The notes: generated by a model from the sequence alone, not told the origin. Positions 10,701-36,162 are shown, numbered from the stretch's first letter. The stretch is DNA of 47,934 nt from Nitrospirota bacterium (GCA_026387615.1 JAPLLI010000059.1:1-47934); one strand, 5' to 3'. Made by a program: numbers and translations.

Positions 10701-11365
10701 CCCTCTTGCGCGAAGTGCATCACCGGGTGAAGAACAATCTCCAGATCATCTCCAGCCTGCTCCATTTCCAAGCGAAAAAGGCTCAAGATGGGCATGAGCA
10801 ATCCATCTTTACCGAGGGGCAGAACCGACTGCGCTCCATGATCCTGGTCCATGAGCTTCTGTATCGCTCCACCGACCTCCACTGCATTTCCCTCGGCGAA
10901 TATCTCACGATGCTTACCGATCAACTCCGTCACTCCTACCGCGAGGCCGCCACCCGCTTACAGCTCCAGGTCGAGGCCTGCGACCTATCGGTGCCGGCGT
11001 CCATCGCCCTGCCATGCGGCATGATCGTGACGGAACTGGTGACCAATGCGTTCAAATATGCCTACCCGGCAAACCAACGCGGTCCGCTATGCATCCGCAT
11101 CGCCATGGGCGAGGGGGTCTTTCGCCTCTCGGTCTCGGACGAAGGGATCGGTCTTCCAACGACATTCGATCTTACCAAGGCCAGTTCATTTGGACTGCAA
11201 TTGGTCACGAATCTGGCCGGGCAACTGGGGGCGACCCTTACCAGGGAGCCCGGCCACGGCACCACCATTGCCCTGGAGATCCCCTTGCCATCCGGAACGA
11301 TGGACCCGACGCGCCAGTCGGACAATCATCCACGACCGTTCCACACAACTGAAAGCCTCACATGA
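7739..11365 (+). CDS. Multi-PAS sensor histidine kinase (HisKA_2/HWE-like type)
   Basis: A 1208-residue membrane sensor kinase. A first membrane segment near residues 10-26 and a second near 305-325 ([16 protein letters not shown]) frame a large periplasmic sensor domain. Five PAS/PAC units follow from about residue 340 to 975, four of them closed by D-I-(T/S)-E-R-K linkers or close variants. The transmitter begins with [12 protein letters not shown], the HisKA_2 phosphoacceptor motif, and ends with an HATPase with NAFKYAYP and DEGIGLP. It has no receiver of its own; the two receiver-bearing proteins encoded next are likely partners, and the ATGA overlap with the next gene supports this. No clear Shine-Dalgarno site precedes the ATG. 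Confidence 0.9.
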
Positions 11366-12903
11366 ATAGGCCACGCATCTACATCGTGGAGGACGAGGCG
11401 CTGATCGCCATGGAGATCAGCGATCGCTTGACCCACCTAGGCTACGATGTCTGTGGCAAGGCAACGCGCGGCGAGCAGGCATTGGAAGAGATTCCACAGC
11501 TCGCTCCCGACATTGTGCTGATGGACATTCGCCTGGCCGGCAAGCTGACCGGCATCGACACTGCCGCCAAACTGCGCCAGCGCCTGGACCTGCCGGTCGT
11601 CTATCTCACCGCCTTCTCCGATACCCAATTGATCGAGGCGGCCATCAGCACCGAACCATTCGGCTACCTGCTCAAACCCTTTGAAGAACGTGAATTGCAC
11701 GCGACGCTCCAGGCCGCGCTGTATAAACACCGCATGGAACAGCGCCATGCGCAGGCACGAGCGTTGGAGAACCAGCTCCAGATAGCCGGCAGCATCGCCC
11801 ACGAGTTCAACAATCTGCTTCAAGTCATCGCAGGCCATCTGACCCTGGCCCAAATGGCCGTCCAACCGGACAACAGACCCCTAACAGACAACCTGGACAA
11901 GGCCATGCAGGCCGCGCAAACGGCAGCAGGCCTCACCGACAAATTGCTCGTCTACACGGGTAAATCGCTCACAGAACTCAGACCGACCGATCTCAATGAA
12001 ATCGTGCGGACCTATTCAGTCGCCCCGCCCCTCCCTCACAAGCCACACCGTCAGCTTCAACTCAGCCTGGGCGAGGGGATTCCCTCCATCATGGCCAACG
12101 CGCAACAGATCTTGCACCTCATGGATCAGCTGGTCACCAACAGCGCCGAATCCACCGCCGCCGGCCCAGCGACCATTCGACTCAGCACGGGGGTGATGGA
12201 ATATGACGAGGTCACGCTGGCCCGTCACTGCCTGGAAGGCACGGCCAACCCCGGAACCTACGCCTATCTGGAAGTGGACGATGACGGATGCGGCATGGAT
12301 GCCGCCACCCTCCAACGGGCCTTCGACCTGTTCTTCACCACCAAGTTCGTCGGCCGGGGGCTCGGGCTGCCAGCTGTCCGTGGAATCGTGCAGTCGCATG
12401 GGGGCTGCCTCTTCGTCACCAGCCACCCAGGGCAAGGCACGACGGTTCGCGTCCTCTTCCCCCTCACGGACAAGCCACGCGCCGCGACGCACCAGGCGCG
12501 CCCTCAGCAGGCCGAGAGAGACCGGACCGGTTCGGCGCACACCCTGTTGGTGGTGGATGATGCCGCCACGGTACGGCTCTTGAGCCAAGAAGCGCTAGAG
12601 CTCTATGGCTATCGAGTGCTTGCGGCCGAGAGCGGCGCGGCGGCCCTGGCCCTGTTCCAGGAGCACCACAACGAGATCGACGGGGTCCTCCTCGACTTAA
12701 GCATGCCGGGGATGGACGGCATTCAGACCTTCGAGGCGCTGCAGCAGATCAAGCCTGGCACCAAGGTCCTGCTCGTCAGCGGCTATCACCCGGACGCGCT
12801 CCGCCAACAGTATGGAGAAAAGGGATTCAGGGGTTTCCTGAAAAAGCCGTTCCAATTGTCAGAGTTACACGAAGCAGTCGAGACGCTGCTGCGCCATGCA
12901 TAG
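11362..12903 (+). CDS. Hybrid response regulator/histidine kinase (REC-HK-REC)
   Basis: A 513-residue cytoplasmic protein. Residues 1-120 are a receiver with VEDE at 9-12 and phosphoacceptor Asp55 in LMDIRLAG. A dimerisation segment with AHEFNNLL near residue 148 provides the histidine, followed by an HATPase ([23 protein letters not shown]) and a C-terminal receiver with [11 protein letters not shown]. It overlaps the preceding kinase by ATGA, so it is probably its direct phosphotransfer partner. The first receiver is strikingly similar to that of the next gene, pointing to an old tandem duplication. No DNA-binding domain is present, so the output is further phosphotransfer. Confidence 0.88.
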
Positions 12904-12927
12904 CCCCCTGCGCCAACGGTCCCCTCA

Positions 12928-15732
12928 ATGAGCACCACCCGCATCTACATCGTGGAAGACGACGCACTGATCGCGATGGAGCTCATCGATCGCTTGACGC
13001 GCTTGGGCTACGAGGTCTGCGGCAAGGCGGCGCGCGGCGAGCAAGCGCTGGAGGAGATTCTCCGGATCAGCCCCGACCTCGTGCTCATGGATATCCGCCT
13101 GGCCGGCGAACTGACCGGCATCGACACAGCCGCCAGGCTGCGCCGGCTCCTGAACGTTCCAATCGTCTTTCTCAGCGCCTTCTCCGACAGCCAATTGCTC
13201 AAGGAGGCGCTCGGCACCGAGCCCTTCGGGTATCTGATCAAACCCTTCGAGGAACGTGAGCTCCAAACCACCATCCAGGCCGCAGCCTGCCAATACCGGC
13301 GGCAGTGCTCATTGCAGGAAGCCAACCAACGCCTGGACGAAACAGTCCGGCAGCGCGACACGCAACTCCATACGCTCAACGAGAATCTCGAACGTCTCAT
13401 TGCCGAGCGCACAGACGAGTTGCGCGAGAGCGAAGAACGCTTGCGGACCCTCTTCGAGCAGGCGGCGGTGGGCGTCGCGGAGATCGACACGCCAACGGGA
13501 CGGTTCATCCGGATCAACCGCAAGTACGGCGAGATCGTCGACTACTCCATGGAGGAGATGCTCGCGCGCGACTTCATGACCATCACCCACCCAGAGGACC
13601 TTGCGTCCGACCTCGCCCAAATGGAGCGACTCAGGCGCGGCGAGCTGCGCGAGTTCACCCTGGAGAAACGGTACATCCGTAAAGACGGCTCGACCGTCTG
13701 GGTGGAGCTGACCTGCTCGCCCCTGTGGGCAAGAGGCGTGGCGCCGACCAGGCACATGGCCGTCATCAAAGACATCAGCGAACGCAAACAAGTGGAGAGT
13801 CAATTGCGGCTCACGCAATTCGCCGTAGAGCAAGCGGCGGACGCCGTGCTGTGGGCCGATGACACGAAGCGCTTTGTCTATGTCAATGCCGCAGCCTGCC
13901 GCTCGTTGGGGTATACGCGGGAGGAACTGTTGACGCTGCGCATTCCGGATATTGCCCCCCGGCATGATCCCGAACGGTTTCAACAGCGGCTCACGGCCAT
14001 CCAACAGGGCAGGTCTGCCACGTACGAATCCCTTCATCGGCGCAAGGATGGGACGGAGTTTCCCGTCGAGGCCTCCATCGCCTATCTCGAGCACGAGGGA
14101 ACGGGCTATACCTGTGGCATTGTGCGGGATATCACCGAGCGCAAACAGGCGGAGCTGGCGCTGCGCGAGAGCGAGGAACGGTTCCGGATTCTCTTTGAAC
14201 AGGCCGCCGTCGGGGTGGCACAGGTCGAGGCGACGACCGGCCGCTTCGTGCGCGTCAATCAAAAATACTGTGACATCACCGGCTATAGCCAGGCCGAGGC
14301 GCTCGAACTTAATGTCCGGCAACTGACATATCCCGACGATCGTGAAGCGAGCCGCGACAGCATGGCGCGACTCACGGCCGGGGAGATATCAGAATTCAAG
14401 ATGGAGAAGCGCTATCTTCGCAAGGACGGCAGCGTCGTGTGGGTGAAGCTCGTGGTCTCGCCGATGTCGATGCCTGGCGCGGAGTCACACTTTAACATCG
14501 CGGTGGTGCAGGACATCACCGAACGGAAAGAGGCGGAAGCGGCCCTGGACCTGCTCCAGGACCAGGTCCGCCAGATGCAGAAAATGGAAGCGATCGGACA
14601 ATTGGCCGGCGGCGTCGCCCACGACTTCAACAATATCCTCACCGCGATCCTCGGCAATGCCGAAATGGCCTGCGCAAAAATCGCGGCCAACCACCCGGCA
14701 CAGACAAACCTCTCCAGGATTCTCGAAGCCGGCGACCGGGCGTCCCGCCTCGTACAACAAATCCTCACCTTCACACACCAACAAGAACCCACGCGAACCG
14801 TGCTGAATCTCTCTCCGGTCGTGCAGGAAGTCCTCGCGATGCTGCGAGCCACTCTCCCGGCCGGCATCGAGCTGACGGCCACCGAGGATGCAGCCACGCC
14901 CCCGATCCTGGCCGATGCCACCCAGATCCATCAAGTCCTGATGAACCTCTGCACCAACGCCTGGCATGCATTGCATGACCAACCGGGCCGGATCGCGGTG
15001 GACCTGGCGCCGATGACGCTCACCCAGCCGCTCCAGACGCTTCATGCGACACTGCCACCCGGCGGCTATGCCCGCCTGTCCGTCCGGGACAGCGGCTGCG
15101 GCATGGCCCCCGACACAGTGGGGCGTATCTTCGACCCCTTCTTTACCACCAAACCGACAGGGGAGGGCACGGGCCTTGGATTGAGCGTAGTTCACGGCAT
15201 CGTCCGTGGACACGAGGCCGCCATCGTCGTGGAGAGCGAGCCGGGCCAGGGCACGACTTTTCACCTCTATTTCCCCGCTACGGAAGCACTGGCCCAGACG
15301 AATGAACCGCCCCAAACCGTCCCGCTCCTGCAACAAGGCCGGGGCTGTCGCCTGCTCTATCTGGATGACGAGGCCATGTTGGTGGAGCTGATCCGTGCCC
15401 AGTTTGAGCCGCTCGGCTATCGAATCACCGGCTGTACCAGGCCGGCAGAAGCGCTGGCTGCGGTTCGCGCCGATCCTGGCGGATTCGATGTCGTGGTGAC
15501 GGACTATAATATGCCGGAGATGTCCGGCCTAGAGGTGGCGCGCGCCTTCTCACTCCTACGGGCCGATCTGCCAGTGGTGCTGGTGTCGGGCTATCTCTCC
15601 CCGGCCGCCCAGGCTGCGATCCGCGCCGAAGGCATCACGGAGATTGTCTATAAGCCCACCCTGTTGCAGCAATTGGGGGCTGTGATCGCACGCCTCCGCA
15701 CCAAACCAATACCTGGAAACGCTGAACCCTGA
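12928..15732 (+). CDS. Hybrid response regulator/histidine kinase (REC-3xPAS-HK-REC)
   Basis: A 934-residue cytoplasmic hybrid. The N-terminal receiver (Asp55 in [12 protein letters not shown]) is followed by a short coiled coil near 130-165, three PAS units to about residue 535 (linkers DISERKQ, DITERKQ, DITERKE), a HisKA domain with AHDFNNIL, an HATPase (DSGCGMA, FFTTKPTGEGTGLGL) and a terminal receiver with VVTDYNMPEMSG. It follows the REC-HK-REC gene by 24 bases. No transmembrane segment is seen. The last residues and stop codon lie in a heptamer repeat array. The cluster likely forms a branched phosphorelay from the membrane sensor; the stimulus is unknown. Confidence 0.88.
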   Translation: MSTTRIYIVEDDALIAMELIDRLTRLGYEVCGKAARGEQALEEILRISPDLVLMDIRLAGELTGIDTAARLRRLLNVPIVFLSAFSDSQLLKEALGTEPFGYLIKPFEERELQTTIQAAACQYRRQCSLQEANQRLDETVRQRDTQLHTLNENLERLIAERTDELRESEERLRTLFEQAAVGVAEIDTPTGRFIRINRKYGEIVDYSMEEMLARDFMTITHPEDLASDLAQMERLRRGELREFTLEKRYIRKDGSTVWVELTCSPLWARGVAPTRHMAVIKDISERKQVESQLRLTQFAVEQAADAVLWADDTKRFVYVNAAACRSLGYTREELLTLRIPDIAPRHDPERFQQRLTAIQQGRSATYESLHRRKDGTEFPVEASIAYLEHEGTGYTCGIVRDITERKQAELALRESEERFRILFEQAAVGVAQVEATTGRFVRVNQKYCDITGYSQAEALELNVRQLTYPDDREASRDSMARLTAGEISEFKMEKRYLRKDGSVVWVKLVVSPMSMPGAESHFNIAVVQDITERKEAEAALDLLQDQVRQMQKMEAIGQLAGGVAHDFNNILTAILGNAEMACAKIAANHPAQTNLSRILEAGDRASRLVQQILTFTHQQEPTRTVLNLSPVVQEVLAMLRATLPAGIELTATEDAATPPILADATQIHQVLMNLCTNAWHALHDQPGRIAVDLAPMTLTQPLQTLHATLPPGGYARLSVRDSGCGMAPDTVGRIFDPFFTTKPTGEGTGLGLSVVHGIVRGHEAAIVVESEPGQGTTFHLYFPATEALAQTNEPPQTVPLLQQGRGCRLLYLDDEAMLVELIRAQFEPLGYRITGCTRPAEALAAVRADPGGFDVVVTDYNMPEMSGLEVARAFSLLRADLPVVLVSGYLSPAAQAAIRAEGITEIVYKPTLLQQLGAVIARLRTKPIPGNAEP

Positions 15733-15870: not shown

Positions 15871-16404
15871 CTACCGGCTGCAGCCTTCGCCGTCACAACC
15901 TCCACGGCCGCCCCTCGGTCCACGATGTTCCTTCCCGCCCATCCCGCTGCCTGGTCCCATCATGCCGGGGCCATGGGCTCCGGCGAAGCTGCGCTCATAT
16001 TGGATAATGGCCCAGATCTCTTCGTCTGTCAGTTGACCGGCAAATCCGATCATCCCGGTGCCTGGCGAACCATTCTTGATGACCCAGAAAATTTCGCCTT
16101 CCGTACGATGGCGCCAGAATCCATGGTGCTGGAAATTGCGAGGCGAAGGATCCAACTGGTCCGCCACCGGTCCATCGCCGCCCCCCTCTTTCCCATGACA
16201 GTTGAAGCAGGTCCCCCTGCCGTTATAGAGCGCTTTGCCCTGTGCGACGGCCTCAGGGGAGTCCGGCAAGGGGCTCGTCAGGGCGCGCGCGTCCGCCAGC
16301 TTGTCGGCCGGCACCAACGGCTGCATCATCTGCCGCTCGGCAGCCCAGGCGGGGATGGCACAAGACAGCATCACGACTATCAGAGAGAACATCTTCGGCT
16401 TCAT
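15871..16404 (-). CDS. Periplasmic monoheme cytochrome c
   Basis: A 177-residue exported cytochrome. An N-terminal signal peptide (MKPKMFSLIVVMLSCAIPAWA) precedes one CFNCH heme site near residue 64 and a likely distal Met in GTGMIGF. The C-terminus is a Gly/Met/His-rich tail (MMGPGSGMGG) ending with two cysteines, which may bind metal. AAAGGAG before the ATG at 16404 fixes the start downstream of the track start. The heme domain closely resembles the last domain of the four-heme cytochrome at 23.1-24.5 kb (both contain IKNGSPGTGM). It follows a DUF2231 gene across a heptamer repeat. Confidence 0.85.
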   Translation of the reverse strand: MKPKMFSLIVVMLSCAIPAWAAERQMMQPLVPADKLADARALTSPLPDSPEAVAQGKALYNGRGTCFNCHGKEGGGDGPVADQLDPSPRNFQHHGFWRHRTEGEIFWVIKNGSPGTGMIGFAGQLTDEEIWAIIQYERSFAGAHGPGMMGPGSGMGGKEHRGPRGGRGGCDGEGCSR

Positions 16405-16420
16405 CGCTCGACTCCTTTGA

Positions 16421-16462
16421 TCATCCGGTCGTCGCTCATCATTCATCGCTCACCGTTCAGCG
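16421..16462. repeat. Heptamer array between the DUF2231 and cytochrome c genes
   Basis: On the plus strand the units TTCAGCG, CTCACCG, TTCATCG, CTCATCA, GTCGTCG and TCATCCG are contiguous (16421-16462). The first three are the reverse complement of the array at the end of the kinase cluster and match the array near 43910. No inverted arm is evident here, so it appears to be a half element. It lies 14 bases after the stop codon of the DUF2231 gene. Confidence 0.7.
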
Positions 16463-17471: not shown

Positions 17472-18689
17472 ATGAACAAACAGGTTGTCGCAGGGCTCGC
17501 GATAGGGCTGGTCATTCTACTGGTCACCGCGCTGACTCCCGTCAGGGAATCGCAGGCGACTCCGGCCTTTGCGCGCAAGTACAACGCGGACTGTGCCATG
17601 TGCCACTATCCGCATCCTCCCCGCTTAAACTCATTCGGCCAGAAGTTCCGCTGGGCCGGCTATCGAACGCCCAGTGAGTTCAACAAGGATCAGGACGTCA
17701 CAAAGGTGGGAGACTTCCTCTCGACTCGCCTGGCGACCCAGTTCGGCTACCAGAGTCATAACAAGGAACTCTCGCGGAGCGAATTCATCCTGAGAGACTT
17801 CTCGCTCTACTATGCGGGGGCGGTGTCGCAGAATATATCGGCCTGGACTCACACCTATATCAGTGGAACAGGCACCGTCAGTTTCGATGGGCAGATTCAA
17901 GGAGTGATGGGGAAGTCCGACCGTTTCTTCAGCTTGACGGGAGGACAGATGCACTTCCTCCAGCAACGAGGGCTGGGCGGCTTGGATCGCCAGGCCGGCA
18001 TCACGGCCAACCCGGTCAGCAGCACCAAGCTCACCAACGGCGGCGCGCCCATTAACTTCGACACGGTTCAAAAGGGACTAGAAGCCGCCTACGTCCAAGG
18101 GCAGGGGAAGCTTGTGGCCCAGGTGATGAACGGGGTCGACAAAAACGGAAGCGGCACCGCCAATGCCGTGGATATCGACCCGCAAAAGGACTACATCGTA
18201 TCGTATCAACATATCCTGGACGAGATCGCCTCAGGCCTCATGGTCTTCTACAACAAAGGGACGACGCATCTTGTAGCAAATGGTCCCGACCTCAGCCAGC
18301 GGGTGGATTTCTGGCGCACCGGCCTCTACCTGAACAAGGTCGTTCCCATGGGAGAAGTCGGCTACTTTGAACTGCAGGGAGGCTACGTGCGTAGCCATGA
18401 CAGCATGCCGATACAGGCAGGACCTGATAAGGACGGCAACGCCTACTACATAGAGTCTCAGCAATTCTTCATGGGGCCGGAACTGACCTTCATCGAACGG
18501 TTTTCCTTCATTGACCAGGATGTGGGACGTCCGAACAGCGTCCGCAAACTCTACACCGCTGGGGCGGTCACGCGGGTCCAGACCTGGGGACGGGCGGCGG
18601 TGGAATATACCCTGACAGACAATCGGGGGCTAGAAGTGAACGGCACGTCCGGCCATACCTTCCTCCTGGAATACATTCTGTTTTGGTAA
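17472..18689 (+). CDS. Cyc2-like fused monoheme cytochrome-porin
   Basis: A 405-residue outer-membrane protein. After a signal peptide ending near residue 29 comes one heme site, CAMCH at 41-45, in the context PAFARKYNADCAMCH and RLNSFGQKFRWAGY. This P-x-FAR ... CxxCH ... LN-x-FG-x-x-F-x-x-x-GY block is the N-terminal hallmark of Cyc2-type cytochrome-porins, in which a heme domain plugs a beta-barrel and moves electrons across the outer membrane. The remaining 350 residues have alternating barrel strands and end with LEYILFW, an aromatic barrel terminus. Iron oxidation is known for some Cyc2 proteins, but other relatives have unknown substrates. I prefer the ATG at 17472 because it starts the signal peptide. 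Confidence 0.75.
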   Translation: MNKQVVAGLAIGLVILLVTALTPVRESQATPAFARKYNADCAMCHYPHPPRLNSFGQKFRWAGYRTPSEFNKDQDVTKVGDFLSTRLATQFGYQSHNKELSRSEFILRDFSLYYAGAVSQNISAWTHTYISGTGTVSFDGQIQGVMGKSDRFFSLTGGQMHFLQQRGLGGLDRQAGITANPVSSTKLTNGGAPINFDTVQKGLEAAYVQGQGKLVAQVMNGVDKNGSGTANAVDIDPQKDYIVSYQHILDEIASGLMVFYNKGTTHLVANGPDLSQRVDFWRTGLYLNKVVPMGEVGYFELQGGYVRSHDSMPIQAGPDKDGNAYYIESQQFFMGPELTFIERFSFIDQDVGRPNSVRKLYTAGAVTRVQTWGRAAVEYTLTDNRGLEVNGTSGHTFLLEYILFW

Positions 18690-18693
18690 CGAC

Positions 18694-19557
18694 ATGAAGA
18701 ACCTGTTCTGGAAGCCGGAACTGATGAAACCCTTGGCCGGCGTACGACTGTTCCTATGCGTCGCCCTCCTGGCCCCCCTACTCGGCGGCTGCAACGAACC
18801 GCTCCGCCTGGCGAAGCCGATCCATGACAGTCCCGACCGGTATGTGATGTTAGATCCGCGATATGGAATGGGCGATAGCTGGGCGGCCAAACCCTTCGCC
18901 CATCCACTGGTGATGGATGAGAAGGATTGGGCTCGCCTCCTGGATGGCATTTCCGTCAAGCCGCGCAAATGGCTCCTCTCCATCGGCATGGCGCCCGAGG
19001 CGCGCGAGGCCTTCGACAAGGAGGAACGGCAATATCTGGCCCGCTACCTGACCGAAGGCTTTGCCAGGGCGAGACCGGACCATTGGGTCGCATTCTTCCT
19101 CAGCCGCCAACGCGACCATGACCTGATCGAGGTCACGTCCGGCGCGTTCTTCGTCACGGGCGACCGGATACATCTGGCCTTGGCCAATTATCGTTATGCC
19201 GTCTCCATGCCCTTCATCCAGGAGCAAATGCGGCAGGATCCATTGCGCCCGGCTGGTGAATCCTTCTATGAAGTGGTGCCAGGCCCCTATCAGTCGGTAC
19301 AGGCCGTGGCCGGGGACCTGAACCGGCCCCTGTTCTCGCACCTGTCCGATCTAGACATCCAGTACCAGGCCATCCTATCCTCTCCCGTCGCGCCTCGCAC
19401 GGGACAGGAGGATTTCGCCGCGCAGGCCGGAAACAGCCGGAGCCAGCCAGACCAGGTCCGGGAACGACTGAAGGCCCTCCAGAAACTGTGGGAACAGGGC
19501 CTCATCTCCAAAGAAGAATATCAGACCCAACGACTGCGCATCCTGAGTAGCCTCTAG
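18694..19557 (+). CDS. Lipoprotein with C-terminal SHOCT-like segment
   Basis: A 287-residue predicted lipoprotein with lipobox LLGGC near residue 33. The body is not recognised; it contains ISVKPRKW, AREAFDKEERQYLARYL and DHWVAFFLSR. The last 30 residues (LKALQKLWEQGLISKEEYQTQRLRIL) match a SHOCT-type short helix pair, which is common at protein ends and of structural or oligomerising use. It starts 4 bases after the cytochrome-porin gene, so it is very likely co-translated, and may anchor or assemble the outer-membrane conduit. An alternative start at 18724 gives a shorter signal peptide. Confidence 0.7.
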   Translation: MKNLFWKPELMKPLAGVRLFLCVALLAPLLGGCNEPLRLAKPIHDSPDRYVMLDPRYGMGDSWAAKPFAHPLVMDEKDWARLLDGISVKPRKWLLSIGMAPEAREAFDKEERQYLARYLTEGFARARPDHWVAFFLSRQRDHDLIEVTSGAFFVTGDRIHLALANYRYAVSMPFIQEQMRQDPLRPAGESFYEVVPGPYQSVQAVAGDLNRPLFSHLSDLDIQYQAILSSPVAPRTGQEDFAAQAGNSRSQPDQVRERLKALQKLWEQGLISKEEYQTQRLRILSSL

Positions 19558-19588
19558 CCGTGGATCAACCAGAACGGATGAGAATGAT

Positions 19589-20371
19589 ATGTTGGATCTC
19601 ATAAGTCGCAAGCTACGCCTCGAACGACGGGATGCTATAACGCGTCTGACGGCAGGCCTCTCCCTGATCTGTCTGCTGGGGCTTACGGGAGATATTCACG
19701 AAGGCGCCGCCTATGAAATGGACCAAACAGGACAAGGCGGCGCGCTGCACGGCCGGGTGACGTTCAACGGAGCGATCCCACAGGCTGAACGGTTGCGGGT
19801 TCCCCGGGACAGCGCGTTTTGCGGATCGACCATCCTGAAAGAGGCGCTCCACGTCGAGCCGCAATCCCATGGGGTCGCGGATGCGATCGTGAGCATCGAA
19901 GGCATCGAGAAGGGCAAACCGCTCCCGATGGAACAGGCCGTCACCATCGAGAACCGCCGCTGCCGGTTTCTCCCGCGGGTGCAAGCCACGACTCTGGGGG
20001 CCACATTGCTGGTCACCAATGAAGATCCGATCCTGCATAACACCAGGCTGCGCAAAGAAACCACCCAGGGGAAAACATTTTTAAATGTCGCGCTGCCCAA
20101 AGGCGTGCAGCCAGTCCAACGAACCCTGAGCGAACCAGGCCTCCTGCTGGTACTTTGCGCGGCCCACCCCTTTATGCGGGCCACGATCCAGGTCTTTGAG
20201 CACCCCTATTTTGCCGTCACCGATGCGAGCGGGAACTTTGACATCACGGCGATCCCGCCCGGAACGTACCTCTTGCGGGTCTGGCACGAGACGCTCGGCC
20301 TGAGCGAACAAACCCTCACGATTCCCGAGGGAGAGGCTCGCACCACCATGAATGTGAAGCTGGAATTCTAG
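19589..20371 (+). CDS. Exported cupredoxin-like protein with carboxypeptidase-regulatory-like domain
   Basis: A 260-residue exported protein (membrane segment near residues 20-34). The middle part resembles a cupredoxin-type fold: H150 in NEDPILHN, then C190, H193 and M196 in LCAAHPFM, an H-C-H-M set suitable for a type 1 copper site. The end, AVTDASGNFDITAIPPGTY followed by RVWHE, is a carboxypeptidase-regulatory-like beta-sandwich. Proteins of this make-up are often encoded near c-type cytochromes in chemolithotrophs. It follows the lipoprotein by 31 bases, so a periplasmic electron shuttle for the cytochrome-porin is a testable inference. Copper binding is not proven. Confidence 0.68.
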   Translation: MLDLISRKLRLERRDAITRLTAGLSLICLLGLTGDIHEGAAYEMDQTGQGGALHGRVTFNGAIPQAERLRVPRDSAFCGSTILKEALHVEPQSHGVADAIVSIEGIEKGKPLPMEQAVTIENRRCRFLPRVQATTLGATLLVTNEDPILHNTRLRKETTQGKTFLNVALPKGVQPVQRTLSEPGLLLVLCAAHPFMRATIQVFEHPYFAVTDASGNFDITAIPPGTYLLRVWHETLGLSEQTLTIPEGEARTTMNVKLEF

Positions 20372-20380
20372 GAGCAATCC

Positions 20381-22612
20381 ATGCCGCCTCGGTGGCTCGC
20401 CACGCTGGTTCGCAGCAAAACACCCTGGTCCCCCGAACAACGGCTCGTCTGGAGCCTGTCCGCCGTCATTACCCTGTTCATGCTGCTATATGGGGCCCTC
20501 CTCATCGTCAAGGAGCAGATTCGGACCAGGGAACAGGCGGAGCGGCGCGGGCTGGCCCTGGCGCGGGGACTGGTCTCCGTCGGTGGAACCGTGGTCTCCG
20601 ACAATCTCTACCTGGTGCAGCGGTCCTTAACCGAGGGCAAGCGAGACCCGGACATTCGCCGGGTGCTGGTCCTGGATGAGCAGCACATGGTGATCGCATC
20701 GGACCAGGTCCCCCTCATCGGCGAGAGGCTCACCGATACGATGCTGCAGGAAGCCGAGAAGAGCGGCCGTGAGTATGTGTCGGTCGGGGCTGATGCACAG
20801 GGGCAGGAGCGGATGGTGGTTTTTGAGCCGGTGTATGAGATCGACGAGAGCAGTCGCACCAGCCCTTCCGGAAGCAGCCCCCAGCTCAGCCACGCGACGC
20901 GGCATCCCGCAGGCTGGATCCTGGTCGAGCTGTCGCTTGAGGACAGCAAACTACAAGCCTACAACACCCTCGCGCGGCAGCTTCTGGTGACCCTGGCGCT
21001 GCTCCTTGTGACCGTCACGGCAGTCCGTCGAACGGTCCGCCGATTAAGCGGTGCGCTGCGAGCCGCGGAGGACAAGTTCCGCTTGATCGTGGAATCCGAA
21101 CCGGAATGCGTCACCACCGTCGACCTGGACGGGACCCTGCTGTCCATCAACCAGACCGGCCTGGCCCTCATTGAAGCCCACAGAGCCGAAGAGATCATCG
21201 GGCTGCCGGCCGTGAGCCTGATCCACCAGGACGATCATGCAGCATTTCAGCACGCGCACCAGATGGTCTGCGAAGGCCAATCAACCATCCTGTCGTTTCG
21301 GCTGATCGGCCTGCGCGGAGGATTACGATGGGTCGAGGCGCATTCAGCGCCGCTGCGCGATCCCCAGCGGGGGATTGTTTCCGTCCTGAGCATCAACCGC
21401 GATATCACCGAACAGCGGCGAGTGGAACAGGCCCTGCGGGACAGCGAGGCCCAGCTCCGGCAGTCTCAAAAAATGGAGGCCGTGGGGAAGCTGGCTGGCG
21501 GTATCGCCCATGACTTCAATAACCTCTTGATGGTGGTGATCGGTGGCTGTGCGTTACTAGAGAGCCGGCTGGACGTGAATGACCTTGTCCGCAAGAATCT
21601 GGCGCGGATTCAGGCAGCAGGGGAGCGAGGCGCGCTGCTGACCAAGCAGTTGCTGGCCTTTAGTCGGCAGCAAGTCTTGCAGCCGAAGATCCTCAACCTC
21701 AATGAAACGATCACGAGCATCGTGCCGATGCTCCAGCCGCTCCTCGGCGAACATATCACGGTGGTATCGGCCCTCGCACCGGATCTGGGACTGGTGGAGG
21801 TCGATCCGGGACAGATGGACCAAGTCATGATGAATCTCGCCGTCAATGCCCGTGACGCCATGCCCGATGGCGGAGCCCTCACCATCCAAACGGCCAACCT
21901 CGAACAGACAGAAACGACGGCTCATCCCCGCCCCCTCGTCCCCCCAGGCTCCTATGTGACGCTGACGATGACCGATACAGGCTGCGGGATGGATGCGAAG
22001 GTTCAAACCCACATTTTCGATCCGTTCTTCACCACCAAAGAAGTCGGCAAGGGCACGGGGCTTGGCCTCTCCATGACCTATGGGATCGTCAAACAAAGCG
22101 GAGGCTTCATCACCGTTCACAGCGAGCCGGCGCAAGGCGCCAGATTTACCGTCTATCTCCCCAGGGTCAAGCCAGTGGCCCCATCGGCCAACACCAATTT
22201 GCTCCCGGATCGCGCCGCGCTTGGCTCGGAAACGATTCTGTTGGTCGAAGACAACGAGATGGTCCGGCAAATCTGCCGTGAGATTATCCAAAGCAACGGG
22301 CATCGGGTCCTGGAGGCTTCCGGAGGCCAGGAAGCCATCGCACTCTGCCAGTCCCATACGGAACGGATTCACCTCTTGTTGACCGATGTGATCATGCCCG
22401 GCATGAGCGGATGGGAATTAGCAGACGCGGTACGGCCCATGCGAACAGACATGAAAGTGCTCTACATGTCCGGGTACACGGACCTTCACGAGAATCACCG
22501 GGAGGTTCTGGAATCAGAGGGGGCATTCCTCCAAAAGCCCTTCACGCCGGATGCGCTGGCACGCAAAATTCGCCAGGTGCTGGACGCGACCCTGCCCTCG
22601 CAGGGGCAATAA
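20381..22612 (+). CDS. Hybrid sensor histidine kinase (PAS-HK-REC)
   Basis: A 743-residue membrane hybrid kinase. Membrane segments near residues 25-43 and 195-213 enclose a periplasmic sensor of about 150 residues with CACHE-like features (VLVLDEQHMVIASDQ). One PAS unit follows (DKFRLIVESEPECVTTVD), then HisKA with AHDFNNLLMV near residue 373, an HATPase (DTGCGMD, FFTTKEVGKGTGLGL) and a receiver with LLTDVIMPGMSG. AGGAG precedes the ATG. It ends the cytochrome-porin operon with a 9-base gap, so it probably senses a periplasmic or outer-membrane signal connected with that pathway. No DNA-binding partner is encoded in the same operon. Confidence 0.88.
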   Translation: MPPRWLATLVRSKTPWSPEQRLVWSLSAVITLFMLLYGALLIVKEQIRTREQAERRGLALARGLVSVGGTVVSDNLYLVQRSLTEGKRDPDIRRVLVLDEQHMVIASDQVPLIGERLTDTMLQEAEKSGREYVSVGADAQGQERMVVFEPVYEIDESSRTSPSGSSPQLSHATRHPAGWILVELSLEDSKLQAYNTLARQLLVTLALLLVTVTAVRRTVRRLSGALRAAEDKFRLIVESEPECVTTVDLDGTLLSINQTGLALIEAHRAEEIIGLPAVSLIHQDDHAAFQHAHQMVCEGQSTILSFRLIGLRGGLRWVEAHSAPLRDPQRGIVSVLSINRDITEQRRVEQALRDSEAQLRQSQKMEAVGKLAGGIAHDFNNLLMVVIGGCALLESRLDVNDLVRKNLARIQAAGERGALLTKQLLAFSRQQVLQPKILNLNETITSIVPMLQPLLGEHITVVSALAPDLGLVEVDPGQMDQVMMNLAVNARDAMPDGGALTIQTANLEQTETTAHPRPLVPPGSYVTLTMTDTGCGMDAKVQTHIFDPFFTTKEVGKGTGLGLSMTYGIVKQSGGFITVHSEPAQGARFTVYLPRVKPVAPSANTNLLPDRAALGSETILLVEDNEMVRQICREIIQSNGHRVLEASGGQEAIALCQSHTERIHLLLTDVIMPGMSGWELADAVRPMRTDMKVLYMSGYTDLHENHREVLESEGAFLQKPFTPDALARKIRQVLDATLPSQGQ

Positions 22613-22618: not shown

Positions 22619-22978
22619 TCAAAACGATAGGCACCGATCCCGTTCCGCCGCCGCCTTTATATAATCCGGCATACCCTTGATCGTCGCGCCAGACACGAGA
22701 TCCCCCACTCCGATCTGCCGCGCCACGGCGCAGGCCCCGCAGACCCAGATGGGAATATGCGCCGCCTGCACGGCAGCCAGCAGATCTTTCAGCGGCGTCA
22801 GGTTCACCCCTGTCACATGATCGGCAGCGCCCTTGCGTCCGAGCGTCACGGATTCATTCCAGAGCCAGAGGATGACATCGTGCCCTTGCTCCTTTGCCAC
22901 TTTCGCGGCCATGAACGGGAGCGTCGCCATCGTGGGATCATCCGTGCCCCGGCTTCCGGAAATAATAAACGTCGCCAC
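22619..22978 (-). CDS. DsrE-family protein
   Basis: A 119-residue DsrE/DsrF-like protein: Rossmann-type start ATFIISGSRGTDDPTMATLPF, then LWLWNESVTL and a conserved cysteine pair in WVCGACAVARQ near residue 80. Members carry sulfane sulfur or act in sulfur relay in the cytoplasm. The start is GTG with GGAGG at a 6-base spacing. Its stop lies 6 bases from that of the converging kinase gene, leaving no room for a hairpin terminator. It is the last gene of the minus-strand sulfur module. Confidence 0.8.
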   Translation of the reverse strand: MATFIISGSRGTDDPTMATLPFMAAKVAKEQGHDVILWLWNESVTLGRKGAADHVTGVNLTPLKDLLAAVQAAHIPIWVCGACAVARQIGVGDLVSGATIKGMPDYIKAAAERDRCLSF

Positions 22979-23015
22979 TCGATACCTCCTTCGACTCGTC
23001 GTTCGTCAATCGCAT

Positions 23016-23104
23016 GCGCGCGAGAAATGCGGGACAGCTTTTCTCGCGTTTTCCCGCCATTCACGTGCCTATTGCCTGTCGCGCCTTTCTCGCACGTCCC
23101 GCGC
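23016..23104. repeat. GC-rich intercistronic inverted-repeat element between the four-heme cytochrome and DsrE genes
   Basis: CGCGAGAAA (23019-23027) and TTTCTCGCG (23040-23048) form a perfect 9-bp stem with a 12-base loop. Further units of similar composition (GCGGGA and TTTCTCGCA types) continue to about 23104 with roughly 9-base spacing. It begins just after the TAA of the cytochrome gene. Units resemble those of the element between mlaE and mlaF. Confidence 0.65.
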
Positions 23105-23114
23105 ACATCACGCG

Positions 23115-24524
23115 TTACCTTGCAAGACTGCGCACATAATGGATGAGCTGCCACACCTGCTCATCCGGCAATCCGGCAAAGGACATCATGCCGGTCCCAG
23201 GCGATCCGTTCTTGATGATCCAGAACAGCTGCCCGTCCGGAAGGTCTTTCATCATCTTGCCGCATGTGAAGTTTCTGGGCGGAGGAACCAACGCCGCCCC
23301 CATGAAGCCTTGCCCGTTTCCTTGTTTTCCATGGCACATCGCACAGGCAACCGGCTGCGCCGACTGGAGGAATAAGGCTTTTCCGGCATTGATCGTTCCT
23401 TCAGAAGCCGGAAGCGGATTGGTTTTAGACAAGAAGTCCCCTGGCGCCTTCACGGTTTTCCGCTCTTGAGGACAGACACCCGTTGGTCCGCCACCCGATT
23501 GGGCAGCGGCCATCTCAGGGACGCCCTTGAACGTTGCCTTCAGATAGGCCATCACATCGGCCACGCCCTGCTGGCCGATGGTCAAGTTCCAATAGGGCAT
23601 GTTCGGCGATTTGCCCATCGCGGCGCCGCCATGGTTGATGACGTTGTAGAGATAGTCGATCGGAAGCTTTTCAAATGGAATGTTGGCATGGATCGCCGGT
23701 TTCGGATCCAACCCGGAAGCTGCCGGTCCGTCACCTTTGCCCGTCGCGCCGTGGCATTGCGAGCAATATTCCTTGTAGACGACTTTGCCACGATCGACGC
23801 TGGCCATCCCGAACTCCTGGCTGGTCCATGGCTCGTAGTACTTGAAGTCCTTCACGCCTTGCACCATGAGGAACCCGATCACCGCCCGGAGCTGTGGCTC
23901 CGTCGCATCGGCCAGAAACTCCCCGCTATGCGGCACGAAGTCTTGTGGATTCTGCCCGAAGCGGAAGAGCCAATCCTGATCGTATCGCTGTCCTGCTGCC
24001 ACGAGCGATGCACTCTGCGGCCCTCCGATGATCTTGCCGTTCTCTTCGATGACGTGGCAACCGAGACAGGCATGCGCCTTAAAGGCCATGCCACCGAAGG
24101 CGGCGTCGAACTTACTCACCTTCGCAAGATCGAACGCGCCGACGGTGACGCGCGGATCTTTGTTGTGCACAGCAAAGTAATCGGCGATCGCGTTGGCCTC
24201 CGACTCGGTGACCATCGGATGCTTGGACGGGGCCTCGGTGAGATCCCATCGGTAGCCCTTGGCATACAGCGGCGCTTCTTTGCCCGTCAGCCACCCGATC
24301 AACCAGGTCCGCTTGTACTTACTGCCGGCCCAGATGAGGTCTGGCGCCTTCAGATTGAAACGCGAGTCCGGCTTGCCTTCCAGCCTGTGGCATTGCACAC
24401 AGGTCTGCTGGATGATGTCCTTCGCGCGCGACTGATCGCTCCCGAACAATAGCCGGGGGGACAGGCCCATCGCTACGGCCAACATCAGCATGGCACCGAC
24501 AACCATGACCCGTCTTGTCTGCAT
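23115..24524 (-). CDS. Periplasmic four-heme cytochrome c
   Basis: A 469-residue exported cytochrome with signal peptide and four CxxCH sites: CVQCH near residue 42, then CLGCH, CSQCH and CAMCH. It reads as consecutive cytochrome c domains, each ending with an Ile/Val-x-x-Tyr/Phe helix, the last of which (IKNGSPGTGM) is closely related to the monoheme cytochrome at 15.9 kb. GGAGGAG before the ATG at 24524 places the start 5 codons inside the track ORF. It lies downstream of OsmC, the YedE pair and the TsdA-like enzyme on the same strand and is a reasonable electron acceptor for that module. Confidence 0.85.
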   Translation of the reverse strand: MQTRRVMVVGAMLMLAVAMGLSPRLLFGSDQSRAKDIIQQTCVQCHRLEGKPDSRFNLKAPDLIWAGSKYKRTWLIGWLTGKEAPLYAKGYRWDLTEAPSKHPMVTESEANAIADYFAVHNKDPRVTVGAFDLAKVSKFDAAFGGMAFKAHACLGCHVIEENGKIIGGPQSASLVAAGQRYDQDWLFRFGQNPQDFVPHSGEFLADATEPQLRAVIGFLMVQGVKDFKYYEPWTSQEFGMASVDRGKVVYKEYCSQCHGATGKGDGPAASGLDPKPAIHANIPFEKLPIDYLYNVINHGGAAMGKSPNMPYWNLTIGQQGVADVMAYLKATFKGVPEMAAAQSGGGPTGVCPQERKTVKAPGDFLSKTNPLPASEGTINAGKALFLQSAQPVACAMCHGKQGNGQGFMGAALVPPPRNFTCGKMMKDLPDGQLFWIIKNGSPGTGMMSFAGLPDEQVWQLIHYVRSLAR

Positions 24525-24558
24525 GTTGCTCCTCCTCAATACCAGTCATTCAAGAATG

Positions 24559-24656
24559 GTCTGTCTGGTCTGTCTAGTCTCTCTCGTCTGGCTGGTCTAT
24601 TCGGTCTATCTGGTTTAACAAACTACGCGGGACCGACCAGATGAACCAGACAGACC
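24559..24656. repeat. 9-base-period tandem and inverted repeat element between OsmC and the four-heme cytochrome
   Basis: Six contiguous plus-strand nonamers fill 24559-24612: GTCTGTCTG, GTCTGTCTA, GTCTCTCTC, GTCTGGCTG, GTCTATTCG and GTCTATCTG. After a 22-base spacer, an inverted arm (GACCAGATG, AACCAGACA) runs from 24635 to 24656. On the minus-strand transcript this is a long imperfect hairpin, 21 bases after the osmC stop codon and before the ribosome site of the cytochrome gene. Confidence 0.8.
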
Positions 24657-24677
24657 TTCCCCTCATTCCTGTCACCA

Positions 24678-25085
24678 TCAGGCCGAACGGTGATGGGGGT
24701 TCAGTTCAATCGTCACGCCGGCCGGCACCGCGATGGATTGATGCACCGTGCAACCATGTGCCACTTTCAGGAGCCGCTCGTTCTGTTCGGCCGCAAGGCG
24801 ATGCGGCACATGAATCCTCAGTGCAACCTGCCCCACCCGATGCGGCTGTTCCGCCATCGTCCATGCTGCCTCGATGCTCAATCCTTTGGTCGAGATCTGA
24901 TGCCGGTCACAATAGCGCCCGACGAAATACCCCACGCAACTGGCGATGGAACCGACAAAGAGTTCAACGGGGCTCATGCCGGCATCCTGCCCCCCATCCT
25001 CGATCGGCTGATCGGTCACCACGCGATGCGCGCCGCTGGTAATGTCGTAGCGAGTCCCGCCATGGTAGGCCACGGTCAGTTTCAT
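24678..25085 (-). CDS. OsmC-family protein
   Basis: A 135-residue OsmC/Ohr-fold protein with the two catalytic cysteines in ASCVGYF near residue 45 and HGCTVHQS near residue 110, and the DAGMSPVELF motif. Such enzymes reduce organic hydroperoxides or act on sulfane sulfur. The ATG at 25085 overlaps the stop of the yedE-like gene as ATGA and has AGGAGG upstream. Its place between sulfur transport genes and DsrE suggests a sulfur-linked thiol role rather than general peroxide stress; this is inference from context. Confidence 0.85.
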   Translation of the reverse strand: MKLTVAYHGGTRYDITSGAHRVVTDQPIEDGGQDAGMSPVELFVGSIASCVGYFVGRYCDRHQISTKGLSIEAAWTMAEQPHRVGQVALRIHVPHRLAAEQNERLLKVAHGCTVHQSIAVPAGVTIELNPHHRSA

Positions 25086-25612
25086 CGCGCACCTCCTGGT
25101 TTCGGAAGACGCAACGCAAGCCAGAGGCACAGAGCCCCCAGCGGAGCGGCAATCCAGAGGCCCCTCACCCCGAACGACCCATGAATCGTCACAGGCCCGT
25201 ACCGTCCGAACGAGAACAGGGCTGCTTCCAAATCAGGAAACATGAACGCAAAGACCAGCGCGCCAAGCAACCCGCCAAGGACTGTCACCCAGGCATCCGG
25301 CTTCCCCTCTGCTGCTGCGGCCAACGCCGTGCCAGGACAATAGCCTGCCACGGCGAATCCGATACCGAAAATCAGTCCCCCCAGCACCAGGCCAGGCAAA
25401 TACAACTCCTTCACCTTCATATGGGCGACGCCCCACAGATCCAACAGATGCACCCCGATCAATCCCACCCCGATCGCCGTCAGGATGAGTTTCATGATCG
25501 TGAAATCTTTCAGCCGTAACGCGTTGATGATCTTCGTCTGGCTGGAGGCCCCTGACAGCTGAAGCACCGCACCGAACGCAGCCCCCAGAGTCAGCCCCAA
25601 CAACAACTTCAT
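25082..25612 (-). CDS. YeeE/YedE-type sulfur transporter half (second)
   Basis: A 176-residue membrane protein with about five helices. The motif GFAVAGYCPGTALAAAAEGK carries the conserved G-x-x-x-x-GYCPGT of the YeeE/YedE (thiosulfate or sulfur uptake) family. The true start is the ATG at 25612, which overlaps the stop of the preceding family member by ATGA; the track ORF beginning at 25942 is an artefact of the upstream gene. With its partner it makes a two-gene version of the longer single-chain transporters. Confidence 0.85.
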   Translation of the reverse strand: MKLLLGLTLGAAFGAVLQLSGASSQTKIINALRLKDFTIMKLILTAIGVGLIGVHLLDLWGVAHMKVKELYLPGLVLGGLIFGIGFAVAGYCPGTALAAAAEGKPDAWVTVLGGLLGALVFAFMFPDLEAALFSFGRYGPVTIHGSFGVRGLWIAAPLGALCLWLALRLPKPGGAR

Positions 25613-26148
25613 CGCGTCCCCCAATCGCCATACAGCCACCGCGCCATGATGATCGCGCTGACAAAGACCGACGCTGAAAAGATGAGCGAACTGACCGCCA
25701 ACTGAGAGACACCGCTGATCATATGGCCGGAGGTGCAGCCCCCACCGAATCGCGCGCCGAACAGGAGAGTAAATCCCCCGATGAACGACCAGACCAGACG
25801 CCTTCCGGGAATTGGCCCAACTCGACGGCCCCACTCGGATGGCACGAGTCTCGTGCTGAATCGCTGCGTGACCCATGAAGCGAGAAACGCGCCGAGCGGA
25901 ATGCCCAGCACAAAAAAGAACTCGTAGTTGAGAAGCGTCCACCCGGCTGCAGCATCCGCGAGATAGGGACTCCTCTCCGCCACGTCAGGAAGGACGTGAT
26001 GCAGCAGGACCCCGTCCAGCACGGCATATTGGGTGGAGACGCCGATCGGTTGGGCCAGCGCCACCGCGAGGATTAAAACGATCCCGATTCCCAAGCCGCC
26101 GGCCCACCAGGGAATCGCAGGGACCACATGGACCACGTCATTCCGCAT
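25609..26148 (-). CDS. YeeE/YedE-type sulfur transporter half (first)
   Basis: A 179-residue membrane protein with four to five helices and the family motif GARFGGGCTSGHMISG, containing the conserved cysteine that relays thiosulfate in the TsuA/YeeE family. It is coupled by ATGA to the second half encoded next, so the two products likely form one transporter. Placement directly after the TsdA-like enzyme supports thiosulfate or a related sulfur compound as substrate. Confidence 0.85.
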   Translation of the reverse strand: MRNDVVHVVPAIPWWAGGLGIGIVLILAVALAQPIGVSTQYAVLDGVLLHHVLPDVAERSPYLADAAAGWTLLNYEFFFVLGIPLGAFLASWVTQRFSTRLVPSEWGRRVGPIPGRRLVWSFIGGFTLLFGARFGGGCTSGHMISGVSQLAVSSLIFSASVFVSAIIMARWLYGDWGTR

Positions 26149-26170
26149 ATGTCAACCGTTTCCCCTGACG

Positions 26171-26217
26171 CGTCATTCGTCTTGTGTCGCTCACGAGGGA
26201 CAGGTCACGCCTCACGA
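26171..26217. repeat. Weak heptamer element between the TsdA-like and YedE genes
   Basis: Heptamers CTCACGA (26190-26196), GGGACAG, GTCACGC and CTCACGA (26211-26217) follow each other, with CGTCATT and CGTCTTG units further left. The CGTCATTCGT segment also occurs in the elements at 5583 and 45855. It begins directly after the TAG of the TsdA-like gene. The arms pair poorly, so it is a degenerate case. Confidence 0.5.
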
Positions 26218-26218
26218 G

Positions 26219-27061
26219 CTAGTACGGTGAATCTGCCGGCTTCCCACCCTGCGGCCAATCGCGAACTTTATCGGCAAAATCAGGCCGGGGCTGGCTGTTC
26301 ACGTAAGCCGCGACATCGTAGGCATCATCATCCGACAGGCTCCAACCCCTGGCACGAGGCATGTTCGACTTAATGAAGGCAGCGGCGACCGTCACTCGTG
26401 CCATCCCTGCGGCGATGGTGTACGACGCTGGCCCCCAGACAGGCGGCGCCGCCATCGTGCCCTGGCCGTCCGAGCCGTGGCAGAAGACACATTTATTCGC
26501 AAATATTTTCTTTCCGTTGGCTGGATCGAGGGAGCGGCGTGAATCGATATGTTGGAGGCCCCGCCAGGGCAAGGCCGCGCCTTGCGGCACTCCCTGCGAG
26601 AGCCAGGTGATATAGGCCACGATGGCCTGGAGCTTGGAACTGTCCGGTGGAAGCGCGCGCCCATTCAAGCTTCGCTCGAAACACTCATTGATCCGATCGG
26701 CGAGCGTGTGCATGCTCGCCGTACGTGCGCGATACTCGGGATAGACTGCCGCCAAGCCAACAAATGACATGGCGTTCGGATTGAGCCCTCCGTCGAGATG
26801 ACAGCTGCTGCAATTCAGACGATTACCGACATAGGGTTTCCCATACTCCTGCGTGTTGACGACAATTTCATAACCCAGCCTGATCTGTTCACCCAGTTGG
26901 CTACCTGGAATAGTTTCCGGGGAGGGCGGGGCGAACTCTATCGAGGCCCTGCCACCCTGGTCCGCTCCATGATGCTCCTCGCTTTTCACCAGATCCGTTT
27001 CGCTGGAGCAGCCCACGAGCATGAACATCCCAAGCATTGCCGATAACAACCACATCATCAT
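26219..27061 (-). CDS. tsdA: TsdA-like diheme cytochrome c, probable thiosulfate dehydrogenase
   Basis: A 280-residue diheme cytochrome with a lipobox cysteine at residue 18 (LVGC). Heme 1 is CSSCH at 84-88, followed by LDGGLNP and VYPEYRAR; Cys127 in RINECFERSLNG lies 39 residues after His88, where TsdA enzymes carry the cysteine axial ligand of the active-site heme. Heme 2 is CVFCH at 191-195, followed by PPVWGPASYTIAAGM, the Met234 of SNMP and DVAAYVNSQPRPDF, all characteristic of TsdA. TsdA couples two thiosulfates to tetrathionate or works in reverse. The lipoprotein anchor and the neighbouring YedE pair are notable. Direction of catalysis cannot be read from sequence. Confidence 0.82.
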   Translation of the reverse strand: MMMWLLSAMLGMFMLVGCSSETDLVKSEEHHGADQGGRASIEFAPPSPETIPGSQLGEQIRLGYEIVVNTQEYGKPYVGNRLNCSSCHLDGGLNPNAMSFVGLAAVYPEYRARTASMHTLADRINECFERSLNGRALPPDSSKLQAIVAYITWLSQGVPQGAALPWRGLQHIDSRRSLDPANGKKIFANKCVFCHGSDGQGTMAAPPVWGPASYTIAAGMARVTVAAAFIKSNMPRARGWSLSDDDAYDVAAYVNSQPRPDFADKVRDWPQGGKPADSPY

Positions 27062-27237: not shown

Positions 27238-28566
27238 TTAGGGGGTTCGCTTGAGGCTCAAGATGTAACTGGTCAAATCGTTGAGCTGCTTATCGTCCAA
27301 CGGAAATTTTGGCATGAACGACCCTGGCGATACCGACTGAGGATCTCGAAAATGCTTCACATGCCAGGCACGCTCCGGCCTCGTGTCGCCGACGTACGAC
27401 AAGTCCGGCCCAATCGCGGCCCCTTCACCGTGAATGCGATGACAGCCCACGCACCCGAACTGAGCAAAGAGCGCATGCCCGCGCGCGAGAGCCGGGTCCA
27501 CACGCGGCACGGCATAGAGATTCTTGAGCGAGAGACCCAGCAAGGCAAACACCACCAGGAGAAACAACAGACCCGAAACCAGCGCCACAGGGCGCTTGAT
27601 CGGATTGCGCACGGGATTCCTGTCGATGAAGGGCCACAAGAACAAACCCAGGATGACAACCATCGGCAGCACCCATGTCGCCAGCGGCTCCAACGGCCCA
27701 TGCACATACTTCAACAATTCGTAATAGAAGAGAAAATACCATTCCGGCACCGGGACGAAGCTGGTGTCTGACGGATTGGCCTTATCAGTCAAGGGAAACG
27801 GCAACAGCAGCGCGAGGCTCGAGAGAATGGCAAAGACCGCCAACATGACGACGGCATCCATATAGACCTGCCGAGGATAGAAGGTCTCGCGGCTGAGTGC
27901 CGCCCGCTCATCCGTCCAGGGCCCGGCCGGCCCCACACGTCGCAGAATGAAAAGATGCGCAGCGATTAACGTGAGCAGAATCGCCGGCAGAAACAACACA
28001 TGGACGGCGAAGAAGCGGGATAAGGTGAGCGCCCCTAACAACTCCCCGCCCCGCATGACCTTCATCAGGAACTCTCCGACCAGCGGAACAGTGCCCACCA
28101 TATTGAGGCCGATCTGCGTCGCCCAATAGGCAGTTTGATCCCACGGCAGCAGATAGCCGGTGAAGGCAAATGCCATCACGATGAGAAACAGCACCACGCC
28201 GACCATCCACATCACTTCGCGTGGCGGCTTATAGGCCCCATACAAAAAGGCCTGGAGCATATGCAGCCCGATCGCAATCACCATCCCTGACGCGCCCCAG
28301 TGGTGGAGCCCGCGCACGAAGGCGCCGAATGTGACCTGTTCTTCAATAAACTGAATACTGTCGTAGGCATGGTCCGGAGTTGGCGCATAGTAGACGGCGA
28401 GAAACATGCCGGTCACGGCTTGCAGAAGAAAGAGAAAGAGTGTGGCCGAGCCGAACACATAGATCCAGCTCGCGCCACCGGGAATCGGTTCGTCGAGCAG
28501 AGTCCGTTCGACCGACTTAAGGTTCAATCGGCGGTCAAGCCATGTATAGACGGGGCCTTGCTTCAT
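27238..28566 (-). CDS. Cytochrome b fused to cytochrome c (bc complex)
   Basis: A 442-residue fusion. The N-terminal cytochrome b helices show the heme-ligand histidines in FVRGLHHWGASGM and IGLHMLQ, and then in VHVLFLPAIL and AAHLFIL. PEWYF near residue 255 is the quinol-oxidation site motif. Four further helices end near residue 350 and a monoheme domain with CVGCH near residue 372 and a later Met (GSFMPKF) follows. It makes the quinol oxidase core of complex III together with the Rieske protein upstream. Fusing the c-domain to cytochrome b replaces a separate cytochrome c1 and resembles arrangements in Nitrospira and Gram-positive relatives. Confidence 0.9.
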   Translation of the reverse strand: MKQGPVYTWLDRRLNLKSVERTLLDEPIPGGASWIYVFGSATLFLFLLQAVTGMFLAVYYAPTPDHAYDSIQFIEEQVTFGAFVRGLHHWGASGMVIAIGLHMLQAFLYGAYKPPREVMWMVGVVLFLIVMAFAFTGYLLPWDQTAYWATQIGLNMVGTVPLVGEFLMKVMRGGELLGALTLSRFFAVHVLFLPAILLTLIAAHLFILRRVGPAGPWTDERAALSRETFYPRQVYMDAVVMLAVFAILSSLALLLPFPLTDKANPSDTSFVPVPEWYFLFYYELLKYVHGPLEPLATWVLPMVVILGLFLWPFIDRNPVRNPIKRPVALVSGLLFLLVVFALLGLSLKNLYAVPRVDPALARGHALFAQFGCVGCHRIHGEGAAIGPDLSYVGDTRPERAWHVKHFRDPQSVSPGSFMPKFPLDDKQLNDLTSYILSLKRTP

Positions 28567-36120: not shown

Positions 36121-36162
36121 TGATTCCTCGTGATAATGAACGACGCGACGACCCGTTTCACC

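Follow-up and report, generated by a model that had tools for sequence, protein, structure and literature searches.

Cyc2 proteins of clusters 1 and 2 (e.g. Mariprofundus, Zetaproteobacteria; Acidithiobacillus ferrooxidans) have about 400-460 aa and consist of an N-terminal monoheme cytochrome, with AxPxFAR and CXXCH motifs, fused to a 16-strand porin (PMC8406198). By its published definition, a Cyc2 protein has 365 aa or more and combines a signal peptide, AxPxFAR[Q/K][T/Y], one CXXCH and PxL with a porin, for which OprO/OprP have served as modelling templates (PMC8406198). Cyc2 of M. ferrooxydans PV-1 has been expressed heterologously (PMC8406198). Cluster 3, whose function was called 'most uncertain' by Keffer et al. 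(PMC8406198), includes the Leptospirillum Cyt572/Cyt579 system, with a FARKY-type motif (AYPGFARKYNFPC..CH) and genes reported as unclustered (PMC10654088). In Acidithiobacillus, the rus operon (cyc2-cyc1-cup-coxBACD-rus) encodes an outer-membrane cytochrome-porin together with a periplasmic copper protein. Cyc2 or cytochrome-porin homologs were already reported in Nitrospira and Manganitrophus, and in Nitrospirales and Troglogloeales; the portions of these reports that we draw on give the porin gene only and do not describe cupredoxin and lipoprotein partners (PMC9040806, PMC7005843). A search of the open-licence literature found no description of a Cyc2-cupredoxin-lipoprotein module in Nitrospira. 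Cyc2 homologs in Nitrospira are already known, and what is new here is the conserved module and its linkage.

In this study, we analyzed a four-gene operon in a window (the whole stretch of DNA examined, 47,934 nucleotides from a Nitrospirota bacterium). The four genes lie on the same strand at 17472-22612(+), and the gaps between them are exactly 4, 31 and 9 bases (Table 1). The operon proposed in the first-pass annotation was correct in its reading frames, strand, coordinates and gaps. Promoter and terminator scans gave results at chance level.

Table 1. Genes of the operon and neighboring cytochromes in the window
Feature	Coordinates	Strand	Length	Domains and motifs
Cyc2-type cytochrome-porin	17472..18689	+	405 aa	signal sequence, monoheme domain ATPAFARKY..CAMCH..PRLNSFG, 16-strand beta-barrel (predicted)
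Lipoprotein	18694..19557	+	287 aa	lipobox LLGGC, SHOCT-like C-terminus
Amicyanin-type cupredoxin domain, then CarboxypepD_reg (predicted)	19589..20371	+	260 aa	ligands H150, C190, H193, M196
Hybrid histidine kinase	20381..22612	+	743 aa	Cache-like N-terminus (weak match), PAS, HisKA, HATPase, receiver
Divergent monoheme cytochrome c	15871..16446	-		cytochrome-579 family homolog
Cytochrome b/b6-petD-cytochrome c fusion	27238..28566	-	442 aa	syntenic in sister genome G009

The window porin shares the fused architecture of clusters 1 and 2. However, it has FARKY instead of FARQT, belongs to a separate clade, and is encoded with a cupredoxin, a lipoprotein and a kinase in an operon without cyc1, cox or rus. 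It has the FARKY-type motif in common with the Leptospirillum system; Leptospirillum and the host belong to the same phylum in the GTDB release used, and a cytochrome-579 homolog adjoins the window operon. But the Cyt572-type proteins have about 550 aa and are sister to another Nitrospira group (B), not to that of the window porin (A). As in the rus operon, the cytochrome-porin is encoded with a putative periplasmic copper protein, whereas this protein is of the amicyanin type with CarboxypepD_reg, not rusticyanin or Cup, the terminal oxidase is missing, and the operon additionally encodes a hybrid kinase and a lipoprotein.

We placed the porin start at the ATG at 17472. A longer ORF opens at 17427, and MNK at 17472 is common to the sister genome G009, whose porin is about 85-87% identical to the window porin. 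A hydrophobic N-terminal helix, judged without a signal-peptide program, indicates a probable signal peptide. The motif ATPAFARKY occupies residues 29-37, just upstream of a single CAMCH with PRL downstream, and the protein exceeds the minimum length in the definition. The heme block and C-terminal barrel noted at first pass were both found: the N-terminal region contains ATPAFARKYNADCAMCHYPHPPRLNSFG...GY, and the last residues, ...LLEYILFW, are of the kind that close outer-membrane barrels. In the AlphaFold model (mean pLDDT 83.5), the heme domain is followed by a predicted porin barrel of 16 strands. Foldseek matched this model to general 16-strand porins, among which OprO (4rjw/4rjx) had the top query-normalised TM-score of 0.59. 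Pfam and NCBIfam contain no model for the cytochrome-porin, and a PDB sequence search with it returned nothing useful. Judged on its sequence and predicted fold, the window porin fits the published Cyc2 definition, with a putative function in iron oxidation.

To place the porin among its relatives, we carried out a single scan of 84,980 species, which gave 441 relatives, and 80 loci were retained. Full-length relatives of the window porin (group A, about 47-87% identity) were found in 8/118 genomes of the same-family comparison set, Nitrospiraceae, and the group A clade also has members in Omnitrophota and other Nitrospirota. The Nitrospira types B (CNVCHVPGFPKLNDFG) and C (CxxCHTAPPxLNxFG) have mainly the heme domain in common with group A. 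In a tree of 110 rows and in a careful 65-row version, group A formed one clade (UFB 100). Both trees also split clusters 1 and 2 from all FARKY proteins (UFB 100), these clusters being represented by pattern-found FARQT proteins of Pseudomonadota genomes, with labels that rest on the motif and on recurrence in small Zetaproteobacteria-looking genomes. A search of a plasmid collection gave one weak match and no reference Cyc2. Joining group A with cluster 1 was rejected (AU p = 3.5e-5), and this test and the split place the window porin outside the validated Fe-oxidizing clusters 1 and 2. Cyt572-type sequences, taken from same-phylum genomes with a cytochrome 579 above the NCBI cut-off, grouped with Nitrospira group B (UFB 100, SH-aLRT 98). 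On these trees, whose deep branches are weak, the window porin is a member of a Nitrospirota-centred clade within the FARKY (cluster-3-type) radiation. The Cyc2 likeness claimed at first pass therefore holds for the definition and not for the validated clusters, and the uncertainty about the function of cluster 3 applies to the window porin too.

FARKY proteins are present also in Bacteroidales, Ignavibacteria and Acidobacteria, which to our knowledge are not known iron oxidizers. In the FARKY clade of Bacteroidota, Ignavibacteriota, Calditrichota and KSB1, a co-oriented gene for a 4-5-heme cytochrome of about 400-540 aa immediately precedes the porin gene, at a distance of 12-118 bases, in 17/17 loci (L050, L051, L059, L060, L063, L069, L070, L074, L077, L080, L081, L082, L089, L092, L104, L105, L110). 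This pairing looks like a distinct electron-transfer module of mostly anaerobic lineages. Two genome titles in the set are doubtful: the 3.4 kb contig L034 carries a Nitrospira-type group A operon under the title Elusimicrobia and is probably mis-binned, and L075, titled uncultured Nitrosospira, carries a group B gene under a title that is probably wrong.

The third gene had been assigned a type 1 copper set at first pass. The four residues are in place and invariant across 24 homologs (Nitrospirota, Acidobacteriota, Bacteroidota), so the set is more than chance. The spacing C-x2-H-x2-M is exactly that of amicyanin, and the cupredoxin family profile matched amicyanin (E 3e-8) with the four ligands aligned residue by residue. 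The AlphaFold model (pLDDT 88.8) matched the amicyanin fold with TMt about 0.70, and its top structural match was the cupredoxin domain of a NirK. Against the NCBIfam equivalog TIGR02657 (amicyanin), the protein scored 14.6 bits, below the 110.2 cut-off. Unlike amicyanin, it has extra residues before the copper domain and CarboxypepD_reg after it, and no methylamine dehydrogenase was recognized nearby. Taken together, the alignment and the model support the third gene as a predicted type 1 copper protein of the amicyanin type, and they speak against four ligands that lie far apart, the condition named at first pass as refuting the copper site. Cupredoxin homologs were found in 118/118 Nitrospiraceae genomes, including 56 in which the porin query matched nothing, which indicates that the family has other uses. 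In Nitrospira defluvii NOB1 (L096:12231-12943), the cupredoxin beside a group C porin is in two frames, from a frameshift or a sequencing error.

To assess the linkage of these partners, we scored the best homologs in the 118 Nitrospiraceae genomes as near when they were at most 4 kb from a cytochrome-porin gene. This was the case for 25/29 cupredoxins and 43/51 lipoproteins, compared with about 0.2% expected for each, and the porins concerned include types A, B and C. We also took a census of the 80 loci, picked regardless of their neighbors, comparing ORFs at most 2.5 kb from the porin with those more than 4.5 kb away. The near ORFs held 22 cupredoxins and 60 cytochromes c (82/391), and the distant ones 0 cupredoxins and 13 cytochromes c (13/375). 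The enrichment was significant (Fisher p = 2e-14), although linkage p-values overstate independence because ORFs were called mechanically and the loci are related to one another. Carrier genes are statistically tied to cytochrome-porins, and this linkage, like the gene order, the motif, the predicted fold and the conservation of the copper ligands, is an observed property of the operon.

Within the group A clade, the cupredoxin is present in the window, G009, RCB, G036, RSF151, UBA2083 and ACE_NIT9, whereas RCA, L034, L037, L040 and L047 carry in its place a monoheme cytochrome c with a length of about 100-125 aa; L033 is also listed with a small cytochrome c instead of the cupredoxin. A small cytochrome c usually adjoins the porin where the cupredoxin is absent. 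Of the arguments that the third gene encodes an electron carrier, this replacement is the strongest. In the group B loci L079, L103, L107 and L108, a cytochrome-579-family homolog lies directly upstream of the porin and the lipoprotein downstream, which makes a clustered counterpart to the iron chain that is unclustered in Leptospirillum. Group B or C modules are carried by cultured Nitrospira such as N. defluvii or N. lenta.

The lipoprotein recurs next to both group A and group B cytochrome-porins. In group A, the gene directly 3' of the cupredoxin encodes a hybrid kinase in the window and in G009, RCB and G036; the group C loci L055 and L102 show the same order. Three large genes for sensor/hybrid kinases or response regulators (1208, 513 and 934 aa) follow one another at 7739-15732(+), shortly before the operon.

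We then examined the other genes around the operon. The cytochrome c at 15871-16446 scored 137 bits against the cytochrome-579 family, below the cut-off of 280, and is possibly a further carrier. Its likeness to cytochrome 579 was set aside as evidence of iron oxidation because such proteins are numerous in Nitrospiraceae, with 5 to 16 copies per listed genome. The cytochrome b-c fusion at 27238-28566 is a possible link to the quinone pool, and matches to it are also found beside group A-clade porins in L044, L045 and L046. Convergent to the operon, at 22619-27061(-), is a cluster encoding a DsrE-family protein, OsmC, two sulfur transport proteins of the YeeE/YedE type and two cytochromes, one a cytochrome c with 3 hemes and the other with a SoxA/TsdA domain; it is mostly syntenic in G009, where the YeeE genes have no match. 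Further along the window, a phosphoketolase adjoins an acetate kinase at 33748-37374(-), in a presumed autotroph, and two neighboring formylglycine-generating-enzyme-like (FGE-sulfatase) proteins with signal-like N-termini are encoded at 45857-47862(-).

The closest relatives of the host bin (2.64 Mb, 88.9% complete) that were retrieved by name are Nitrospira. The first-pass annotation had called the host a likely nitrite oxidizer, which was not borne out for the bin: its three PF00384 proteins comprise two NuoG and one that resembles formate dehydrogenase, and no match came from an NxrA query against this 88.9% complete bin. A search with PF02461 (ammonia monooxygenase) likewise gave no match, but as its control also gave none, it carries no weight. 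The sister genome G009 (99% complete) encodes an NxrA-like protein of 1148 aa. Since such a protein was found in G009 and none in the bin, nitrite oxidation is plausible for the lineage and unproven for the bin.

Based on these results, we lean towards the operon being an outer-membrane electron-uptake conduit served by a dedicated carrier and perhaps by a dedicated sensor. The heme domain would plug the periplasmic mouth of the 16-strand porin, and its heme would take single electrons from a donor in the lumen, most likely dissolved Fe(II) or a comparable metal. Electrons would then pass to the amicyanin-like cupredoxin, the proposed periplasmic carrier, which would deliver them to cytochromes c, to an oxidase and possibly to the cytochrome b-c fusion. 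The lipoprotein may be an accessory factor, perhaps for assembly or docking, and the kinase may sense the donor or the redox state. Here, we infer the direction of the electrons, the substrate, the signal of the kinase and the role of the lipoprotein; it is family precedent that favors Fe(II) as the substrate. For the uptake route claimed at first pass, the Cyc2 definition, the barrel, the copper site and the linkage stand, whereas the porin falls outside the validated clusters and the donor is part of the interpretation.

It is unlikely, in our assessment, that the conduit runs outward, with the porin heme passing electrons received from the cupredoxin or cytochromes to an acceptor outside the cell under oxygen shortage. 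In FeGenie, cluster-3 Cyc2 stands for probable iron oxidation, with iron reduction as a possibility, and it is found in Geobacter (PMC7005843). The pairing with multiheme cytochromes in the related clade of Bacteroidota, Ignavibacteriota and others also fits an outward flow, but the Nitrospiraceae group A loci carry a copper protein or a small cytochrome and no multiheme partner. Furthermore, type 1 copper carriers are usually near +200 to +350 mV, which is too high a potential for reducing Fe(III) oxides at neutral pH, and this usually high potential argues for an inflow of electrons. The donor could instead be a reduced sulfur species, with the operon working together with the convergent cluster. 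We give this a small chance because the DsrE-OsmC-YeeE-SoxA-like genes, with their 3-heme cytochrome, are adjacent and most of the cluster is kept in G009; however, among the relatives examined, no locus other than the window and G009 showed the cluster genes, and the SoxA-like protein scored 41 bits against a cut-off of 110.

A role in metal homeostasis or sensing, with the porin admitting copper or iron, the cupredoxin binding copper, the kinase sensing metal and no part in energy metabolism, would account for the presence of a porin, a copper-site protein and a dedicated sensor kinase in one operon. We consider it quite improbable, since metal uptake needs no covalent heme on the porin, and the replacement of the cupredoxin by a small cytochrome c at other loci of the clade points to electron transfer, not copper binding. 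Very improbable is the idea that the cupredoxin serves another enzyme, such as the copper nitrite reductase NirK, and that its adjacency to the porin is incidental. The family does occur in every sampled Nitrospiraceae genome, often away from porins, and the NirK domain was the top structural match, but the closest homologs of the window protein are near cytochrome-porins in most cases, as counted above.

Beyond this operon, we tentatively propose, as a serious possibility, that Nitrospiraceae, including nitrite oxidizers and complete ammonia oxidizers, hold a conserved and regulated extracellular electron-uptake module. Its anciently diverged porin types A, B and C would share the amicyanin-like cupredoxin, the lipoprotein and the kinase and would swap the cupredoxin for a small cytochrome c, and the cells would gain Fe(II), other metals or solid donors as a supplement for growth. 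Among nitrite oxidizers, Nitrospira are the most widespread. If the proposal is true, many of them could draw electrons from outside the cell, and nitrification would be tied to iron and mineral redox in soils, aquifers and water filters. With the cupredoxin, there is also a partner gene through which the least understood part of the Cyc2 family can be tested. Taken together, the recurrence of versions of this gene set across the family suggests that these nitrifiers may also feed on iron or similar donors.
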